NCBI RefSeq assembly: GCF_017168145.1
Contig: NZ_JADQTL010000010.1
Location: 124,001 to 188,000, forward strand
Direction: 5' to 3'
DNA: 64,000 bases
From: Anaerovorax sp. IOR16
GTDB lineage: Bacteria > Bacillota > Clostridia > Peptostreptococcales > Anaerovoracaceae
The notes beneath the pieces were generated by a model, which saw nothing but the letters and a program-made list of their open reading frames with translations, had not been told where the DNA came from and ran no database searches. The position numbers and the translations under genes are program-made. Of the stretch, positions 1-9,051 are shown in pieces. Positions within the stretch are counted from its first letter, which is position 1. Every line of letters begins with the position of its first letter.

Positions 1-106
1 GTTAATATTTAAAATTTTCAATAATTTATTTAAACTTTAAAAATATTTAATAATTTAAATAAATTTTGGAAGGGCAAGAATGATTAAACAAATATTTTTA
101 CATAAT
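1..106. other. AT-rich intergenic stretch at the window edge
   Basis: Very AT-rich sequence beyond the ribosomal operon terminator. I see no reading frame, promoter or repeat in it that I can support. Confidence 0.5.
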
Positions 107-136
107 AAAAAAAGCCTGAAGGAAATCCTTCAGGCT
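107..136 (-). terminator. Intrinsic terminator of the S10-spc-alpha operon
   Basis: Perfect 11-bp arms (AGCCTGAAGGA and TCCTTCAGGCT) are followed on the minus strand by a run of seven T. It lies 25 bp after the rplQ stop and closes the whole ribosomal string. Confidence 0.93.
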
Positions 137-160
137 CTGTATTTGATTCACAAAATCAGC

Positions 161-502
161 TTATACTAATTCTAAAAATACCAATTCGGCACAGTCCCCT
201 CTTCTAGGTCCTAGCTTTAGAATTCTGGTATAGCCACCGTTACGTTCTGCATATTTTGGTGCAATTTCATCAAACAGCTTTGTTACTACATCTTCATCAA
301 AGACATAAGCAAGTACCTGTCTTCTTGCATGCAAATCTCCACGCTTTGCCAATGTGATCATCTTTTCTGCTTCTCTTCTCGCTTCTTTTGCTCTTGTATC
401 AGTCGTTGTAATACGACCTTCTCTCAGAAGATCGGTTACAAGGTTTCTCAACATAAGCTTTCTATGAGCAGTCGGTCTGCCTAATTTTCTATAACCTGGC
501 AT
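161..502 (-). CDS. rplQ: 50S ribosomal protein L17
   Basis: L17 is a large-subunit protein near the peptide exit side of the ribosome. The 113-residue product has the usual bacterial length and the family N-terminus MPGYRKLGR...HRKLMLRNL, with the conserved GGYTRILKL segment near the C-terminus. The start is fixed by AAGGAGG nine bases upstream. It begins 20 bp after rpoA and is the last gene of the S10-spc-alpha string, followed by a strong terminator. No promoter of its own is visible, so it should be made from the long operon transcript. Nothing is odd about it. Confidence 0.97.
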
Positions 503-522
503 AATTCATCCTCCTTCCGCAA

Positions 523-1470
523 TTATTCTTCGCTCGGCTTTAATCCAAGGCCTAATTCTTCTAACTTGTGCTTTACCTCATCCAAAGATTTCTTACCAAG
601 GTTTCTAACCTTCATCATATCATCTTCCGTTCTATGAGTCAGCTCTTCTACAGTATTAATTGCCGCACGTTTTAAACAATTGAAAGAACGAACGGAAAGT
701 TCAAGCTCTTCAATAGTCATCTCTAAAGCTTTTTCTTTCTGATCTTCTTCTTTTTCAACCATGATTTCAACCGAATCCATGCTATCTGTTAAGTCAATAA
801 ATAATTTCAAATGCTCTTGCATAATCTTTGCACCAATAGAGACGCCTTCATCAGGGGCAATGCTACCATCAGTCCAAACCTCTAAAATCAGTCTATCATA
901 ATCTGTTACCTGACCAACTCTAGTATTCTCAACCATAAAATTGACTTTACGAACCGGTGTATAAATGGAATCCACCGGAATCACCGCAATCGGAGTAGAT
1001 TCTGTTTTATTCTGATCTGCAGGTACATAACCTCTTCCTTTTGCAATGTTAATTTCCATTACTAAAGTCGCATTTTCCTCCAAGGTTGCTATATGCAGAT
1101 CCGGATTGAAGATATCCAAATCACTGTCAGCAATGATATCTGCTGCAGTTACCACTTTCGGCCCAACTGCATTGATGATTACTCTTTTTGTACTTTCATT
1201 GTTTAAGCGAACAGCGAGTTTCTTTAAATTAAGAATAATCTCGGTAACGTCCTCTTTTACACCCGGAATGGTTGAAAATTCATGAAGAATGCCATCAATT
1301 TTTACAGATGTTACAGCGGCTCCAGGAAGTGAAGAAAGTAGAATTCTTCGCAAGCTGTTACCTAATGTTGTACCATATCCTCTCTCCAGAGGTTCAACTA
1401 CAAACTTACCATAGCTCATATCCTCATCCGAATAGATACACTCGATTGTTGGCTTTTCAATTTCGATCAC
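523..1470 (-). CDS. rpoA: DNA-directed RNA polymerase subunit alpha
   Basis: Alpha dimerises to start RNA polymerase assembly, and its C-terminal domain contacts UP elements and activators. The 315-residue product shows both parts: an N-terminal domain with [19 protein letters not shown] (about residues 32-51), and an acidic, Lys-rich linker around 230-245. A helix-hairpin-helix C-terminal domain follows ([26 protein letters not shown]). The start codon is GTG, placed behind AAAGGAGGG. It follows rpsD after a 91-bp spacer that holds an unusual GC-rich palindrome, annotated separately, and leads directly into rplQ. Confidence 0.98.
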
Positions 1471-1500
1471 TCAAAATCCCTCCTTTTTTAATCGAATTAA

Positions 1501-1540
1501 CTGGAGGAATTCCCACTCGGCCTAGGCCGCGGAATTCCCG
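1501..1540 (-). promoter_or_regulatory. GC-rich nested palindrome in the rpsD-rpoA spacer
   Basis: Two copies of GGAATTCC (1506-1513 and 1531-1538) flank a perfect 12-bp palindrome CGGCCTAGGCCG (1518-1529). In RNA this folds into an 8-bp outer stem, an internal loop and a 6-bp inner stem. No T-run follows, so it does not look like a terminator. It is much richer in G+C than its surroundings. S4 represses its own operon in other bacteria, so an S4-binding or RNA-processing site between rpsD and rpoA is possible. That role is inference. Confidence 0.6.
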
Positions 1541-1561
1541 TATGGGACCATCTTACGTGGC

Positions 1562-2182
1562 TTACTTTGAGTACAATTCGACGATGAGATGTTCTGCGAT
1601 CGGTGTATCGATGTCTTCTCTTCTTGGCATTGCAAGAATTTTACCTTCAAGCTTATCTGGCTCAACCGTAATCCAGTTTGGAGTGCTGATAGACATTTCT
1701 CTAATTTCTTTAAACTTAGGAGAAGAAGCACTCTTTTCCTTTACTTTAATTACGTCACCCGGTTTTACTTCAAGGGAAGGAATGTTTGCTTTCTTTCCAT
1801 TAATCGTAAAATGTCCGTGTCTCACGAGTTGTCTTGCTTCTTTTCTTGAAGAAGCAAATCCCATTCTATATACTGCATTGTCAAATCTTGTTTCTAACAT
1901 GATTAACAAGTTTTCACCGGCAATACCCTTTTTCTTTTCTGCTTTATCAAAATAATTTCTAAACTGAGTTTCCAGTATACCATAGAAACGCTTTGCTTTT
2001 TGCTTTTCTCTTAGCTGTAGACCATAATCAGAAATCTTCTTTCTGCTCTGACCATGCTGTCCCGGAGCGTAGCTTCTCTTATCAATAGCACATTTGCTGC
2101 TATAGCATCTTTCGCCCTTTAAGAACATCTTTTGGCCTTCTCTTCTGCATAATCTACAAGCAGGACCTATATATCTAGCCAT
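1562..2182 (-). CDS. rpsD: 30S ribosomal protein S4
   Basis: S4 is a primary 16S rRNA-binding protein that nucleates 30S assembly and is a known autoregulator of its operon in several bacteria. The 206-residue product carries the Cys-containing N-terminus [18 protein letters not shown], with Cys pairs that suggest a zinc-binding form. It also has the S4 RNA-binding domain with [10 protein letters not shown]-like sequence (here [20 protein letters not shown]) and [12 protein letters not shown]. It lies 21 bp after rpsK in the alpha operon. The spacer after it contains the palindrome at 1501-1540. Confidence 0.97.
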
Positions 2183-2203
2183 ATTAACTACACCTCCCTT
2201 TCA

Positions 2204-2602
2204 CTAAACTCTTCTTCTCTTTGGTGGTCTGCATCCGTTGTGTGGAATTGGAGTAATATCTTTAATCATATTAATCTCAAGACCTGCAGTCTGTAATGCT
2301 CTGATTGCAGCTTCACGTCCGGAACCAGGTCCCTTTACGTATACTTCTACGGTCTTAAGTCCATGTTCCATAGCGCCTTTTGCAGCTTCTTCTGCCGCCA
2401 TTTGTGCTGCGAATGGTGTAGATTTTCTAGAACCCTTAAATCCTAAAGAACCAGCACTGGACCAAGACAATGCATTACCGCTTAAATCGGTAAGAGTTAC
2501 AAGAGTGTTATTGAAGGTCGATTGGATATGAGCTTGACCGCGTTCAATATTTTTACGTTCTCTTCTCTTTTTACGAACCGTCTTTTTTATTGCTTTTGCC
2601 AT
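2204..2602 (-). CDS. rpsK: 30S ribosomal protein S11
   Basis: S11 lies on the platform of the 30S subunit and helps shape the mRNA exit site. The 132-residue product has a basic N-terminus and the conserved segments [30 protein letters not shown] and the C-terminal [13 protein letters not shown]. The length is normal for Firmicutes. It is followed closely by rpsD and preceded by rpsM, the standard alpha-operon order, with a clear GGAGG site before its ATG. Nothing is unusual. Confidence 0.97.
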
Positions 2603-2617
2603 TTTAATCTCCCCTCC

Positions 2618-2989
2618 TTACTTCTTCTTCTTTCTACCAACTGTCTTCTTAGGACCCTTACGAGTTCTTGCGTTGGTCTTTGTCTTCTGTCCGCGAACAG
2701 GAAGACCTCTTCTATGTCTGATTCCTCTATAGCAACCAATTTCCATCAATCTCTTAATGTTTAAGGAAACTTCTCTACGAAGGTCTCCTTCTACGTTGTA
2801 TTCGCTATCAATGATTTTTCTGATTGCACCTACCTCGTCCTCAGACAAGTCTTTAATTCTGGTATCTGGGTTGATTCCAGCTTCTTCTAAAATTTTAGCA
2901 GAAGTTTTTCTACCGATACCATATATATAGGTGAGTCCAATTTCTACTCTTTTGTCTCTTGGTAAATCGACACCGGCTATACGAGCCAT
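2618..2989 (-). CDS. rpsM: 30S ribosomal protein S13
   Basis: S13 sits in the head of the 30S subunit and forms intersubunit bridges with L5. The 123-residue product begins [21 protein letters not shown] and has the [16 protein letters not shown] helix-turn segment. It ends in the basic tail [18 protein letters not shown], all typical of the family. Its ATG follows AGGAGGTG. It is separated from the upstream rpmJ by an unusually long 180-bp spacer with hairpins, annotated below. Confidence 0.97.
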
Positions 2990-3169
2990 CCTTACACCTC
3001 CTATTTTTTCCTTTTTTTGTCCTTTCCATACAGGACTTTATGGAAAACAATTTACTAGTCTCCAATTGCTTCTATTTGAATGCCCTTAAGTTGTTTCGTT
3101 GCCTCCCGGCAAGAAAACACAGCCGCTCCCTAGGGTACATCCTTCTGATTTTGTGACGATTGTCGTTTA
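2990..3169 (-). other. Structured 180-bp spacer between rpmJ and rpsM
   Basis: Neighbouring ribosomal genes are 2-30 bp apart, but this spacer is 180 bp and has no reading frame I can support. It contains a perfect 8-bp hairpin (TTTCCATA at 3023-3030 with TATGGAAA at 3039-3046), just before the rpsM ribosome site. A second short hairpin, TTGCC/GGCAA, is at 3099-3112. It may hold a regulatory leader for the alpha-operon part; function unknown. Confidence 0.4.
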
Positions 3170-3522
<353 letters not shown>

Positions 3523-3607
3523 ATATGGCGCACCTCCTCCTTTACCCGGTTCTACTTATTTAACAATACCGATTCATTCATTTGCAATAGATTTTACTTA
3601 GCTGCTT

Positions 3608-4354
3608 TTATAAAGTCAGCAGTTCAGGTTCATCTTCCGTAATCACAACCGTATTCTCATAATGAGCGGAAAGCTTTCCATCACAGGTCTTTACTGTCCA
3701 ATTGTCCAGCATTACATCTACCTCATAGCTTCCTTGGTTAATCATTGGCTCAATTGCAAGTACCATTCCCGGAACAAGCTTTGGACCTCTACCGGGCTTT
3801 CCGTAATTCGGAATCTGAGGATCCTCATGCATCGATCTTCCAATGCCATGTCCAACGTAATCTCTTATGGCAGAAAATCCAGCGGCTTCAACAGTTACCT
3901 GAATGGCATGAGATACATCTGATAGACGAAATCCTGGCTTGCAGAATTTTAAGCCTTCAAAAAAACTCTGTTCTGTTACTGTGATTAAGCGTTGTGCTTC
4001 TTCAGAAATTTTTCCTACACCATAAGTTCTTGCAGCATCGCTGTAATACTTATGGTGTATGGTTCCTAAATCAACACTGACAATATCTCCGTCTATCAGC
4101 TTCCGTTTCTTTGTCGGAATGCCATGAACAACTTCGTCGTTTACCGATATGCAAGCACACGCAGGGAATCCACCGTAACCTTTAAATGCAGGAATCATAT
4201 TATTTTTTAAAATGGTTTCCTCCACATAATCATCGATGTCCTTTGTACTCATTCCCGGCACAATGATGCTCGGGAGTTCTTTCAGCATGGCCTTTGTCAC
4301 AGTAGCCGCTTCTCTCATAATATCAATTTCTTCTTGTGATTTCAGAATAATCAT
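3608..4354 (-). CDS. map: Type I methionine aminopeptidase
   Basis: The enzyme removes the initiator methionine from nascent proteins, using two metal ions. The 248-residue product is the short bacterial type without an N-terminal zinc-finger extension. The five metal ligands are recognisable: D in VSVDLGT, D in YYSDAART, H in GHGIGRSMHEDPQIPN, E in LAIEPM and E in HYENTVVIT. The start lies one base after the adk stop, so the two are translationally linked. It is part of the spc-alpha junction, as in other Firmicutes. Confidence 0.96.
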   Translation of the reverse strand: MIILKSQEEIDIMREAATVTKAMLKELPSIIVPGMSTKDIDDYVEETILKNNMIPAFKGYGGFPACACISVNDEVVHGIPTKKRKLIDGDIVSVDLGTIHHKYYSDAARTYGVGKISEEAQRLITVTEQSFFEGLKFCKPGFRLSDVSHAIQVTVEAAGFSAIRDYVGHGIGRSMHEDPQIPNYGKPGRGPKLVPGMVLAIEPMINQGSYEVDVMLDNWTVKTCDGKLSAHYENTVVITEDEPELLTL

Positions 4355-4355
4355 T

Positions 4356-5000
4356 CTATGCTCCTAAAACCTCCACAATTTCGCTAAAGACTTTGTCTAA
4401 AGCGCCAGCTCCATTAATATGAGCAATGTTTCCGGCTTTTTCATAATAATCAATCAGTGGACTCGTTTGCTCAAGATAAACTTGAAGACGATTGCTTACT
4501 GTCTCCAATGTATCGTCCGCTCTCTGGTAAATCTCTCCACCGCAAACATCGCATATACCTTCCTTTTTCGGAGGCATATTTTTTACGTGATAAGTTGCAC
4601 CACAGTTTTTGCAAACTCTTCTACCAATCATTCGGTCAATCAATATATCTTTTTCTACATCAATGTCCAAAACCTTATCGATTGCCGAATTTTTTTCTTT
4701 TAAATAAACATCAAATTTTTCTGCCTGATAAACGGTTCTTGGAAAACCATCCAATAAAAATCCGCCCTTGCAGTCATCTTCTGTCAAGCGATCCTCTACT
4801 AATTCAATCACTAAATCATCCGGAACAAGCTCTCCCTTAGACATATACTCTTGCGCTTTTTTGCCAAGAGGTGTTCCTTCTTTTACATTCTTTCGAAAAA
4901 TATCACCAGTAGAGATATGAGGAATATTATATTTCTCAGCAATTTTGGTTGCTTGTGTACCTTTGCCGGCACCCGGAGGGCCTAACAAAACTAAATTCAT
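4356..5000 (-). CDS. adk: Adenylate kinase (zinc-lid form)
   Basis: Adenylate kinase interconverts ATP + AMP and 2 ADP in the cytoplasm. The 214-residue product has the P-loop GPPGAGKGTQA at residues 7-17 and the AMP-site STGDIFR. The DGFPRT motif follows, and a LID domain carries two CxxC pairs (CKNCG and CDVCGG) that bind structural zinc, as in Gram-positive species. It lies between secY and map in the standard order. The GxPGxGKGT loop and the lid are intact, so it should be active. Confidence 0.97.
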   Translation of the reverse strand: MNLVLLGPPGAGKGTQATKIAEKYNIPHISTGDIFRKNVKEGTPLGKKAQEYMSKGELVPDDLVIELVEDRLTEDDCKGGFLLDGFPRTVYQAEKFDVYLKEKNSAIDKVLDIDVEKDILIDRMIGRRVCKNCGATYHVKNMPPKKEGICDVCGGEIYQRADDTLETVSNRLQVYLEQTSPLIDYYEKAGNIAHINGAGALDKVFSEIVEVLGA

Positions 5001-5016
5001 TTTTTTTATCCTCCAA

Positions 5017-6303
5017 TTATTTCAAGAAGCCTTGGTAGTTTCTCATTACCATTTGCGATTCCAGCTGCTTCATCGTGTCAAGTGCAACACCGACTGCAAT
5101 CAGAAGGGAGGTTCCACCGAAACCAATCTGCAAATGTGTAAACTGTTGCAGAAGGGTTGGCATGATGGCAATGGCAGCTAAGAATACTGCTCCTACAAAA
5201 GTAATTCTTGTCATAACTTTGTTTAAATAATCAACGGTTGGTCTTCCCGGACGAATTCCAGGAATAAAACCGCCATTTGCTTTCATATTATCAGCTACTT
5301 CCATCGGATTAAATGTAACTGCCGTATAGAAATACGTAAAGAAGATAATTAACAGTACATCCAATGCTGCATACAGCCATATACCGGGTGCTGGAGCTGC
5401 TGGAGATAACCATGCATGCACAAAATTAGCAAATCCCGTATTTGGCCAGAAATAAGTTAAGGTCAATGGGAACTGTAACAAGGAAATCGCAAAGATAACC
5501 GGAATTACACCTGCCTGATTTACCTTCATTGGAATGTGTGTGCTTTGTCCGCCATACATCTTTCTTCCAACCACTCTCTTTGCATACTGAACAGGAATTT
5601 TTCTCTGTCCCTGTTGTATAAGGACAATACCTACGACTACAACAAATGCAAACAGGATAAAAAGAATAACGGAAAGCCAAGATACATCACCAGCTTGAAG
5701 CTTCGTCCAAGTCTGAGCAATACCACCAGGCATTCTGGATACAATACCGGCAAAGATAATCAAAGAGATACCGTTTCCGATTCCTTTTTCATTAATCTGT
5801 TCACCGAGCCACATAAGGAATGCCGTACCAGCTGATAACGTCATAACAATGACTATTACAGAAAAAATATCTGTGCTAACCAATGCGCGACGGAATAAGC
5901 CAACTGTCAATCCAACTGCTTGAACCAAAGCCAAAACCACTGTTAAATATCTTGTATATTGTGCTATTTTTTTCTTACCTTCGGTACCCTCCTTTGCAAT
6001 TTCCTCAAGACGAGGGATTGCAATGGTGAGTAACTGAAGAATAATCGATGCCGTAATGTACGGCGTGATGCTGAGAGCAAAAATGGTGAAGTTACTAAAC
6101 GCACCGCCAGAAAACAAGTCAAACAATCCAAATAGGCCCGCATCATTTGAGTTAAATAACTGTGACAACGTAGCTCTGTTAATACCCGGTACCGGAATGT
6201 TCGATCCCAAGCGGAAAACAACCATCATAAATACTGTAAACATAATTTTATTACGAATATCTGAAATTTTCCACGCTTGAGCCATTGTTTTAATCATGCT
6301 CAT
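5017..6303 (-). CDS. secY: Preprotein translocase channel subunit SecY
   Basis: SecY forms the protein-conducting channel of the Sec translocon with SecE, whose gene is at 48987-49208. The 428-residue product has ten predicted membrane segments and the conserved plug region RLGSNIPVPGIN. Other family segments are GGAFSNFTIFALSITPYI, the cytosolic loop GIGNGISL, and FNPMEVADNMKANGGFIPGIRPG. AGGTGA precedes the ATG. It starts two bases from the rplO stop and is followed by adk, the usual spc-operon order. Confidence 0.97.
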   Translation of the reverse strand: MSMIKTMAQAWKISDIRNKIMFTVFMMVVFRLGSNIPVPGINRATLSQLFNSNDAGLFGLFDLFSGGAFSNFTIFALSITPYITASIILQLLTIAIPRLEEIAKEGTEGKKKIAQYTRYLTVVLALVQAVGLTVGLFRRALVSTDIFSVIVIVMTLSAGTAFLMWLGEQINEKGIGNGISLIIFAGIVSRMPGGIAQTWTKLQAGDVSWLSVILFILFAFVVVVGIVLIQQGQRKIPVQYAKRVVGRKMYGGQSTHIPMKVNQAGVIPVIFAISLLQFPLTLTYFWPNTGFANFVHAWLSPAAPAPGIWLYAALDVLLIIFFTYFYTAVTFNPMEVADNMKANGGFIPGIRPGRPTVDYLNKVMTRITFVGAVFLAAIAIMPTLLQQFTHLQIGFGGTSLLIAVGVALDTMKQLESQMVMRNYQGFLK

Positions 6304-6304
6304 A

Positions 6305-6745
6305 TTAGATCACCTCTGCCTTTCCTCCGGCAGACTCGATTTTTTCAATTGCTGTTTTACTAAATTTCTGAGCCTTTACGGTTACGTTCTTCTCGAGTGT
6401 TCCATTTCCTAGAATTTTAATACCGTCAACAACCTGCTTCGCAAGTCCTTTTTCCATTAGTAGCTCAGGTGTAACCACGGTTCCATTTTCAAATACGTTT
6501 AATGCTTCGACATTAACACCAACGTATTCTTTTCTCCAGATGTTTGTAAAACCTCTCTTCGGGATTCTACGATACAATGGCATCTGTCCGCCTTCAAAAC
6601 CAAGTCGAACGCCGCCGCCACTTCTAGAATTTTGACCGTTCATACCTCTACCGGCAGTTTTACCCTGACCAGTAGCAGTACCTCTACCTTTTCTCTTCGG
6701 CTTTTTGGTTGACCCTTCAGCCGCTCTTAATTCATGTAGTTTCAT
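6305..6745 (-). CDS. rplO: 50S ribosomal protein L15
   Basis: L15 is an assembly protein of the large subunit with a long, Gly/Arg-rich N-terminal arm that penetrates 23S rRNA. The 146-residue product begins [20 protein letters not shown] and contains [20 protein letters not shown] and the signature [18 protein letters not shown]. An ATG two codons upstream is only about three bases from GGGGGT, so the second ATG, eight bases away, is the better start. It lies between rpmD and secY. Confidence 0.95.
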
Positions 6746-6763
6746 TCTCATACACCCCCATTC

Positions 6764-6943
6764 TTAGTCTTCTACTTTTAAAAGATGTGATACTTTTGCT
6801 ACAGCTCCGCGCGTTTGCGGTGTATCTGGGAGCTCAACTGTATGTCGAATTTTTCTTAGTCCTAACGCTTCTACCACTTTTCTCTGAGCAGGGGAAGCGC
6901 CGATTACACTTTTAATCAGTGTGATTTTCACTGTCTTAGCCAT
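6764..6943 (-). CDS. rpmD: 50S ribosomal protein L30
   Basis: This 59-residue protein, MAKTVKITLIKSVIGA... ending HLLKVED, matches the bacterial short L30. The SxIGxxxxQRKVVEALGLRKI segment binds 23S rRNA, and TVELPDTPQTRGAVAKVSHLL is the usual C-terminal half. A GGAGG site lies before the ATG. It sits between rpsE and rplO as expected. It is short and easy to miss, but the match over its whole length is clear. Confidence 0.95.
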   Translation of the reverse strand: MAKTVKITLIKSVIGASPAQRKVVEALGLRKIRHTVELPDTPQTRGAVAKVSHLLKVED

Positions 6944-6957
6944 TTTGCGTTTCCTCC

Positions 6958-7461
6958 TTATCCTAAGATTTCTTCCTTAGTTTTCCCTCTTAGTCTGCAT
7001 ACTTGATCAAGTGTTTTCAGGTTTCTTAGTCCTTCAACTGTCGCGTAAGCCATATTTCCATTGTTATTAGAACCAATCGATTTCGCTCTTACATCTTTCA
7101 GTCCAGCATGTTCCAATACGGTACGAACGGAACCACCCGCGATTACTCCAGTACCCTGTGCAGCAGGCATAATCAATACTCTTCCTGCTCCAAATACACC
7201 TAAAGATCTATGTGGTATCGTTGTTCCAACCATTGGAACTAATATTAAATTCTTTTTAGCATCTTCGATTGCTTTTCTTACTGCTTCAGGAATTTCCTGA
7301 GCTTTTCCAAGGCCGCAACCTACATGACCTTCACCGTCACCGATTACTACAGTTACGCTGAATCTGAAGTTCTTACCGCCTTTAACAACCTTCGCAACTC
7401 TTCTGATGTTTACGATCGATTCTTTTAAGTCAAGCTTGGATGCATCAATCATATTTCGCAT
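6958..7461 (-). CDS. rpsE: 30S ribosomal protein S5
   Basis: S5 forms part of the mRNA entry tunnel and affects translational accuracy. The 167-residue product starts [19 protein letters not shown]. The double-stranded-RNA-binding-like N-terminal domain contains [16 protein letters not shown] and [18 protein letters not shown]. The C-terminal domain has [18 protein letters not shown] place the start at 7461 behind AGGAGGAGG. A longer frame to 7506 would overlap rplR and adds a non-conserved leader. The spectinomycin loop (VVKGGKNF) looks wild type. Confidence 0.95.
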
Positions 7462-7477
7462 TCTGTTCCTCCTCCTG

Positions 7478-7846
7478 TTAGAATTTGAGTCCAGCTTCAC
7501 GAGCACCGTCAGCTAATTCTTTCACTCTCCCGTGATATAAGAATCCACCTCTGTCGAAGCATACTGTTTCGATACCCTTCTCTAAAGCTCTCTTTGCAAT
7601 TGCAGCGCCTACTAGCTTTGCAGCTTCTTTGTTCCCACCATAAGCAGCCTGTGCTTTGATGTCATTATCCAAAGAAGAAGCAGCAACTAAAGTCTTTCCA
7701 GCAACATCATCAATGATTTGTACGGAAATGTTCTTTATGCTTCTATAAACGCACATTCTTGGTCTTTCAGGAGTTCCAGATACATCTTTTCTAACTCTGG
7801 CATGTCTTGCCAGACGTCTATCATTTCTACTATCTTTCTTTGCCAT
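7478..7846 (-). CDS. rplR: 50S ribosomal protein L18
   Basis: L18 binds 5S rRNA together with L5 and L25 in the central protuberance. The 122-residue product has the basic N-terminus [22 protein letters not shown], then [15 protein letters not shown]. The C-terminal signature is [28 protein letters not shown], complete to the last residue. It lies in the standard rplF-rplR-rpsE order, 16 bp from each neighbour. Nothing is unusual. Confidence 0.97.
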
Positions 7847-7862
7847 TTCTATTCACTCCTTC

Positions 7863-8410
7863 CTACTTTTTCTTAGCGCCGGCCTTGCCTTCTTTTCTAC
7901 GAACTACTTCATCAATGTAACGAACGCCCTTGCCCTTATAAGGTTCTGGCTTTCTCCACTTACGAATGTTTGCTGCGTAGTTTCCAACAAGTGCCTTGCT
8001 GATGCCTTTTACCGTAACTTCCGTAGGAGAGGTAACCTCCGTCTGGATTTCATCTGGATCCGGCATTTCGATTGGATGTGAATATCCTAAATTAAGAACA
8101 AGTACTTTACCTTTTTCTCAGCCTTGTAACCAACACCAATCAATTGAAGTTTCTTTTCAAATCCGTTGGTTACACCGACAATCATGTTCTGAATTAATGT
8201 TCTGGAAAGTCCGTGTGCGGATCTTGCTTCCTTAACATCATTGTCTCTCGTTACGGTCAACACACCGTCATTCATTTCTACTTTTATTAAATTGCTAATC
8301 TGCTCCTGCAGCTCTCCCTTTGGTCCTTTTACAGTAACAAGATTGCTGTCACTGACTTTTACTTCGACACCAGCAGGAATCGTTACAGGGAGCTTGCCTA
8401 TTCTTGACAT
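7863..8410 (-). CDS. rplF: 50S ribosomal protein L6, interrupted by a frameshift
   Basis: L6 binds 23S rRNA next to the sarcin-ricin loop and is needed for a fully active 50S subunit. The N-terminal half (8410 downward, [15 protein letters not shown]...GVGYKAEKK) runs into an early TAG at 8087, after about 107 residues. The C-terminal half ([16 protein letters not shown]...[21 protein letters not shown]) is intact in another frame and ends at 7863. The frames meet at a five-base A-run (T-run 8112-8116 on the plus strand). One extra A would give the expected [17 protein letters not shown] and a normal 182-residue protein. The likeliest cause is a homopolymer sequencing or assembly error; a real mutation or recoding is possible. 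Confidence 0.95.
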
Positions 8411-8438
8411 TTGCTATACCTCCTAATTCCTTCTCTTG

Positions 8439-8837
8439 TTACCAAACGTAGCAAATTACTTCGCCGCCGACACCAAGTTCTCTAGCTTCCTTGTCGCTGA
8501 TCAATCCCTTAGATGTAGAGATGATTGCAATTCCTAAGCCACCAAGTACCTTAGGCACCTCGCCGCTTTTTGCATATACTTTTAGTCCCGGTTTGGAGAT
8601 CTTTTTGATTCCACTAATTACTCTTTCTTTGTCAGTACCGTATTTCATTTGAACTCTAATTACGTCCTGAACTTCGTTCTCTATTACATCGTACCCTTTA
8701 ATATAACCTTGTTCGATTAAAATTCCTGCAATCGCTTTTTTCATCTTAGAAGCAGGAATATCAACGGTAGCGTGTCCTACAGTATTGGCATTTCTGATTC
8801 TTGTAAGCATATCTGCTATAGGATCTGTCATGGTCAT
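8439..8837 (-). CDS. rpsH: 30S ribosomal protein S8
   Basis: S8 binds the central domain of 16S rRNA and is the known feedback repressor of the spc operon in E. coli. The 132-residue product has the N-terminus [18 protein letters not shown], typical of Firmicutes. The C-terminal rRNA-binding segment [33 protein letters not shown] is complete. AAGGAGG lies about ten bases before the ATG. It follows rpsN and precedes rplF, as usual. Confidence 0.97.
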
Positions 8838-8865
8838 AGTTCAAGTGCCTCCTTCCTTTTTAATA

Positions 8866-9051
8866 CTACCAGCTGGCTTTTCTTACGCCAGGAATTTCTC
8901 CTTTATAAGCCAATTCTCTGAAACAGATACGGCAGATACCGTATTTTCTCAAGTATGCATGCGGTCTTCCACAGATTCTGCATCTAGTGTATTCCTGTGT
9001 GCGATACTTTGCTTTTCTCTGTTGCTTTACTTTGAGAGATGTCTTTGCCAT
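8866..9051 (-). CDS. rpsN: 30S ribosomal protein S14, type Z (zinc)
   Basis: S14 is a head protein of the 30S subunit. The 61-residue length, with the four ligands CRICG and CRICF separated by a short loop, marks the zinc-dependent form. That form is the ancestral one in Gram-positive bacteria, as against the about 100-residue zinc-free form. The tail [18 protein letters not shown]-like end is conserved. Located between rplE and rpsH. No second, zinc-free copy is in this window. Confidence 0.97.

Follow-up and report, generated by a model that had tools for sequence, protein, structure and literature searches.

The alpha operon of Anaerovorax sp. IOR16 carries, in the gap that separates rpsD (ribosomal protein S4) from rpoA (RNA-polymerase alpha subunit), two copies of GGAATTCC that enclose a second palindrome, CGGCCTAGGCCG. 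This arrangement raises the question of whether the nested palindrome acts in the operon mRNA and, if so, on which gene. The window analyzed was a stretch of 64,000 nucleotides, the first 8 kb of which hold, on the minus strand, the end of a ribosomal-protein cluster (secY, adk, map, infA, rpsM, rpsK, rpsD, rpoA, and rplQ, named from their open reading frames, or ORFs); rpmJ was also read directly in the sequence near rpsM. The rpsD-rpoA gap spans positions 1471-1561 and measures 91 nt, or 94 nt counting the rpsD stop codon. Its features and flanking genes are as follows:

523-1470, minus strand: rpoA (RNA-polymerase alpha subunit), from the ORF, with a GTG start at 1470, and homologues.
1473-1483, minus strand: rpoA Shine-Dalgarno (SD) region, GGAGGGATTTT, complementary to GGAATTCCTCC over 11 bp including G-U pairs.
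1503-1505, minus strand: TCC completing the anti-SD motif CCTCC (1503-1507), from sequence and folding.
1506-1513, minus strand: second arm (3' in the mRNA), GGAATTCC, predicted to pair with the first arm or, together with 1503-1505, with the rpoA SD.
1518-1529, strand-neutral: inner palindrome, CGGCCTAGGCCG, identical in the sister species; predicted RNA fold, a 4-bp stem with a CUAG loop.
1531-1538, minus strand: first arm (5' in the mRNA), GGAATTCC, unchanged in the sister genome.
1562-2182, minus strand: rpsD (ribosomal protein S4), from the ORF and homologues.

The nested palindrome (1506-1538) was confirmed in the sequence as originally described. Throughout the 64 kb searched, it was the sole 8-bp inverted repeat with arms 8 to 23 nt apart that enclosed a palindrome of at least 10 nt. 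At least one such nested structure was also present in 3 of 20 dinucleotide shuffles of the 64 kb, and the best 44-nt fold at the palindrome ranked 86 among 31,978 windows. Simple 8-bp inverted repeats numbered 78 in the window against 26 in shuffles, roughly a threefold excess. The form is thus unusual and by itself not decisive against chance; it is retention in the sister species that sets the palindrome above chance. The two-arm pattern GGAATTCC-N8..35-GGAATTCC occurred at three sites in the 3.38-Mb genome of the organism itself and at one site in the sister genome, in the same rpsD-rpoA gap, while the pattern read backwards gave no match in either. Of the two other pairs, which enclose different inner sequences, one falls within an ORF of lipoprotein type (L112) and one follows a gene for a sigma-54-type regulator (L114), both labels being our own reading. 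A dispersed palindromic repeat of the REP or MITE kind was therefore rejected, since the genome of the organism itself contained no second copy and neither, by the two-arm pattern, did that of the sister.

Conservation of the gap was assessed against the sister species (G001), the only congener among the genomes searched, whose genome was assembled separately as a single contig. Four of the 91 positions were substituted and none inserted or deleted (95.6% identity), compared with identities at third codon positions of 72.8% for rpoA and 84.1% for rpsD. Expressed as divergence, these third positions differed by 27% and 16%, and the rpmJ-rpsM stretch by 16%; the gap was the more conserved in each comparison (Fisher p of 5e-7, 0.004, and 0.006, respectively). 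All four substitutions fell outside the arms, the inner palindrome, the TCC, and the SD region, although the probability that four changes miss these sites by chance (0.22 for the 28 palindrome columns and 0.08 for 42 columns) is weak evidence alone. High conservation was not unique to this gap, because three other operon gaps of 15 to 21 nt were 100% identical to the sister and the rpsE-rplO stretch, which probably contains rpmD, was 96% identical. Conservation was far lower in the infA-map gap (56% identity) and in the region that follows rplQ (57% when indels are counted). Because the gap is better conserved than the third positions of its flanking genes, it is not a linker artefact and is probably not neutral filler.

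The original prediction had looked to close relatives, where absence would speak against the element. It is present in the one congener, and outside the genus neither GGAATTCC nor the inner palindrome occurred in any of the other 89 distinct spacers (of 91, from 110 loci). On these sequences the palindrome is genus-specific, carried by two genomes. A scan of positions 1300-2300 found no intrinsic terminator, that is, no GC-rich stem with a T run, on either strand of the gap, and a terminator or promoter role was rejected, neither signal having been found there.

The second arm and the adjoining TCC read GGAATTCCTCC on the coding strand and are complementary to the rpoA SD region GGAGGGATTTT over 11 continuous base pairs, G-U pairs allowed; the equivalent helix in the sister has 13 bp. 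No substitution between the two species falls inside the SD helix of the window species, in a comparison of two genomes only. When the upstream part of each spacer was dinucleotide shuffled 200 times, the pairing score was reached by 1.5% of shuffles for the window and 0.5% for the sister. These were the two lowest values among the 85 distinct spacers tested; both stem from the same element, shared by two sister species and singled out of those 85. The survey began with the 110 loci and 91 distinct spacers, six of which were dropped for an upstream part shorter than 15 nt or a spacer longer than 160 nt. A general anti-SD rule across the relatives was rejected (median shuffle p of 0.615, with a p of 0.05 or less in only 3 of 85).

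Folding of a 150-nt transcript predicted that GGAGG is paired with a probability of at least 0.98 in both species, so that the SD is covered in the favored fold of each. The favored folds differ: in the window species the predicted SD helix uses more of the second arm, and in the sister the second arm stays in the palindrome hairpin and the SD is bound mainly by CCTCC. Mean openness of GGAGGG was 0.04 versus 0.28 in spacer shuffles, with 4% of 300 shuffles equally closed. SD accessibility at rpoA was the seventh lowest of the 46 SD-bearing ORFs in the window (0.20 for a 5-nt site that begins one base early; 0.01 for GGAGG itself); an occluded SD as such is not rare in the window. The predicted fold of a 98-nt stretch lay 1.5 standard deviations below its shuffles, 13 of 200 of which folded equally well. 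The two-part hairpin of the original prediction is possible in a transcript that starts near the rpsD stop codon and ends with the second arm (-17.7 kcal/mol), but in the full transcript the second arm can also pair with the rpoA SD. Before the SD is transcribed, the hairpin is predicted to be stable at -17.7 to -19.2 kcal/mol, with an asymmetric internal loop in the window species that separates 8 to 9 bp from 4 bp. A strict two-state switch, in which the second arm chooses between the first arm and the SD, was weakened as a candidate: neither predicted fold leaves the SD exposed, and only some of the base pairs are contested between the arms.

Collectively, conservation of the spacer and anti-SD complementarity support a role for the palindrome in the mRNA. 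We give about even chances to the reading that it forms part of a genus-specific, SD-occluding RNA leader of rpoA within the alpha operon transcript. The arms and inner palindrome would fold into one hairpin, and directly 3' of it CCTCC, made up of the second-arm end and the TCC, would pair with the SD sequence GGAGG across a 19-nt loop. The two hairpins could form next to each other; alternatively, the second arm could leave the first hairpin and extend the SD helix to 11 to 13 bp. Because the SD would be covered in either form, we infer that free 30S subunits should initiate rpoA poorly. The yield of alpha subunit would then depend on the frequency of opening of this structure, for which the putative triggers are ribosomes running on from rpsD or a ligand. 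A ribosome stopped at a stop codon covers about 15 nt beyond it. Since the rpsD stop codon lies 23 nt from the first arm, simple coupling through a ribosome terminating at rpsD is unlikely, which leaves running-on ribosomes or the ligand.

Other explanations of the palindrome were weighed against this rpoA leader. The hairpin could be an mRNA processing or stability element, such as an RNase III site or an exonuclease barrier, that divides the S4 and alpha-subunit parts of the message, the SD complementarity being incidental. The intercistronic position, the conserved spacer, and the hairpin stability predicted ahead of SD synthesis all favor such an element; nevertheless, it leaves the 11- to 13-bp complement to the SD unexplained, and the internal loop interrupts the hairpin in the window species, so that we regard it as unlikely. 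A small insertion without function, decayed or young, and alike in two species through recent descent, would account for a spacer of 94 nt against a median of 54 nt (91 distinct spacers, stop codon included). It is in keeping with the long insertions that other genera carry in the same gap and with the excess of 8-bp inverted repeats in the window. Set against the absence of another copy in either genome and a spacer better conserved than the third codon positions of rpsD and rpoA, this origin appears doubtful.

The original prediction had also proposed that S4 controls the palindrome, for which nothing was found in support. In its present form, this proposal makes the palindrome a candidate second S4 site that adjusts rpoA-rplQ translation, beyond the operon leader. 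What speaks for it is the gene neighborhood; Meek and Hayward reportedly asked, in a title of 1984, about a second S4 site near rpoA-rplQ in E. coli. However, none of the 89 distinct spacers from other genera contains the palindrome, although S4 itself is conserved, and no Rfam match up to an E value of 1 was found in window positions 1-9000, with the caveat that the clostridial S4 leader of PMC7247131 may not be among the Rfam 15 families. PMC7247131 lists that leader ahead of rpsM, and a second S4 site at the palindrome is very improbable. A cloning-linker or assembly artefact, suggested by the dense restriction-like palindromes, was refuted by the separately assembled single-contig sister genome, which has the element with point differences; its likelihood is negligible. 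The palindrome is thus real, conserved in two species, and genus-specific, and its link to S4 is unsupported.

Lineage-specific spacers of 145 to 419 nt were observed in the rpsD-rpoA gap of other genera (L004/L032, L035, L065, L076, L088, and L094), several of them with hairpin-like repeats. The idea that these insertions make up a single repeat family was rejected. With 282 of its 419 nt used, the L004 spacer gave one further match, of 29 bp, in its genome. Among the five genomes searched, the L065 element had matches in that of L088 in addition to its own.

A better candidate for an S4 site than the palindrome, and a candidate for the clostridial S4 leader, is a conserved part of the rpmJ-rpsM stretch at about 3078-3130 on the minus strand, which reads GGAGCGGCTGTG...GCCGGGAGGC...GGGCATTC. 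Of 90 distinct loci, 30 have GGAGCGGCTG and 43 have GCGGCTG within 250 nt before rpsM, the window and sister being included in both counts. Also before rpsM, positions 3019-3043 (minus strand) contain the interleaved complements CCATA/TATGG and GTCC/GGAC, which could form a pseudoknot; the sister reads ACCC/GGGT in place of GTCC/GGAC, with two pairs changed on both sides. In addition, a strongly conserved stretch resembling CCCGTYTATATYRC...GYGACGGAAGATGGG precedes rpsM in L072, L074, L080, L096, L101, and L111 and was not seen in the leader of the window; for this stretch, GACGGAAGAT was noted before rpsM in 24 of the 90 distinct loci.

In many genomes of the class, the rpoA SD is preceded by another conserved sequence complementary to it. 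Directly before rpoA, AATCAGTTRCCCTCR...GGAGGG was found in L206, L207, L210, L213, L215, L222, L235 (one change), L186, and L201. The pattern CCCTC-N12..42-GGAGGG-N3..10-TGATHGA matched 133 of 297 genomes of the order, four of them twice (backwards control, 2), counted genome-wide, so that some matches may lie away from rpoA. Outside the family of the window it matched 131 of 185 order genomes, versus 2 of 112 inside. Among rpsD-anchored loci from other families of the order, 13 of 15 had CCCTC upstream of the rpoA SD. A sample of the class comprised 40 genomes from 36 families, chosen with leaders unseen among the rpoA matches listed, so that families with the most diverged rpoA fall outside it. 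CCCTC lay upstream of the SD in 26 of the 40 (shuffle mean 1.0, largest 5) and was lacking in 14; RCCCTCR occurred in the same 26 (shuffle mean 0.3) and CAGTTRCCCTC in 14 (shuffle mean 0). Exact AATCAGTTRCCCTC was present in 14 of 118 class genomes, once in each and always 33 to 112 nt before the rpoA match (control, 0). A search of 13 loci against Rfam 15, up to an E value of 1, returned three matches, all to unrelated families and below the gathering score: one of miRNA type at L210, on the opposite strand, and two at other places in the 3.6-kb L003. No credible Rfam 15 counterpart of the wider rpoA element emerged from the loci tested.

A covariance model (R1) was built from 30 leaders. These were taken from the 38 with CCCTC 8 to 42 nt before the SD among 59 leaders (60 minus L196, in which no start was read); eight of the 38 were excluded manually, chiefly because their loops were long or their sequences nearly identical (L188, L191, L197, L204, L208, L211, L232, and L241). 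In the 30-leader alignment no pair of the CCCTC/GAGGG helix was changed on both sides, and shuffles paired equally well. Because CCCTC was the selection criterion, the alignment speaks neither for nor against pairing, and CCCTC may be conserved for a reason other than pairing. Of 27 other loci, 12 were matched by R1 with an E value under 0.001, including L005 (38.1 bits) and L017 (37.4 bits) of the family of the window. R1 did not recognize the window spacer (12.1 bits, E value of 2.3, sixth of 14 hits in the window), and a genome-wide search gave five weak places, none at rpoA (best E value, 0.81).

In L198 and L200, of one genus and chosen for their CCCTC...GGAGGG match, the end of rpsK rather than rpsD directly precedes the element, which argues against dependence on an adjacent rpsD; in L199, of the same family, rpsD precedes it. 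The genus of L198 and L200 (g39; genomes G039 and G050) was observed to have only a distant rpsD, at 39 to 40% identity. The family of the window mostly lacks the exact wider element, and the palindrome gives another complement to the SD. The two share the gap and an SD complement a few tens of nucleotides upstream, but differ in sequence. The palindrome may have replaced the wider element, or the likeness may be coincidental.

Translational leaders that occlude an SD are a known general kind in ribosomal-protein operons. The palindrome resembles them in that an anti-SD sequence in a conserved leader is complementary to the SD of the downstream gene; it differs in that they precede the first gene, whereas the palindrome sits inside the operon before rpoA, in one genus, and its ligand is putative. 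The ribosome binding site of the E. coli alpha operon, which we take to be Rfam RF00140, likewise places an RNA structure over a translation start in this operon, but is a pseudoknot at the first gene and had no Rfam match in the region searched. With the clostridial S4 leader the palindrome shares the operon, rpsM-rpsK-rpsD-rpoA-rplQ, and is set apart by its position before rpoA rather than the one before rpsM given in PMC7247131. For Bacilli, regulation of the alpha operon is described as still unknown in a 2024 review (PMC10931766). A literature search, mostly outside subscription journals, found no paper on an rpoA-proximal leader in Clostridia.

The palindrome would be a local variant or solution of a known kind, and greater interest attaches to the wider rpoA element, a by-product of this analysis that is directly testable and merits a study of its own. 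More speculatively, Clostridia might use an SD-occluding rpoA leader to control alpha-subunit synthesis separately from that of the ribosomal proteins encoded in the same operon. Many lineages would use the AATCAGTTRCCCTCR element, perhaps read by a ligand, and the genus of the window would have swapped in the palindrome, with the second arm as a new anti-SD: a turnover of RNA regulators in which the pairing logic is kept. If rpoA does have its own occluded start in Clostridia, RNA polymerase could be set apart from the ribosomal proteins encoded on the same mRNA.
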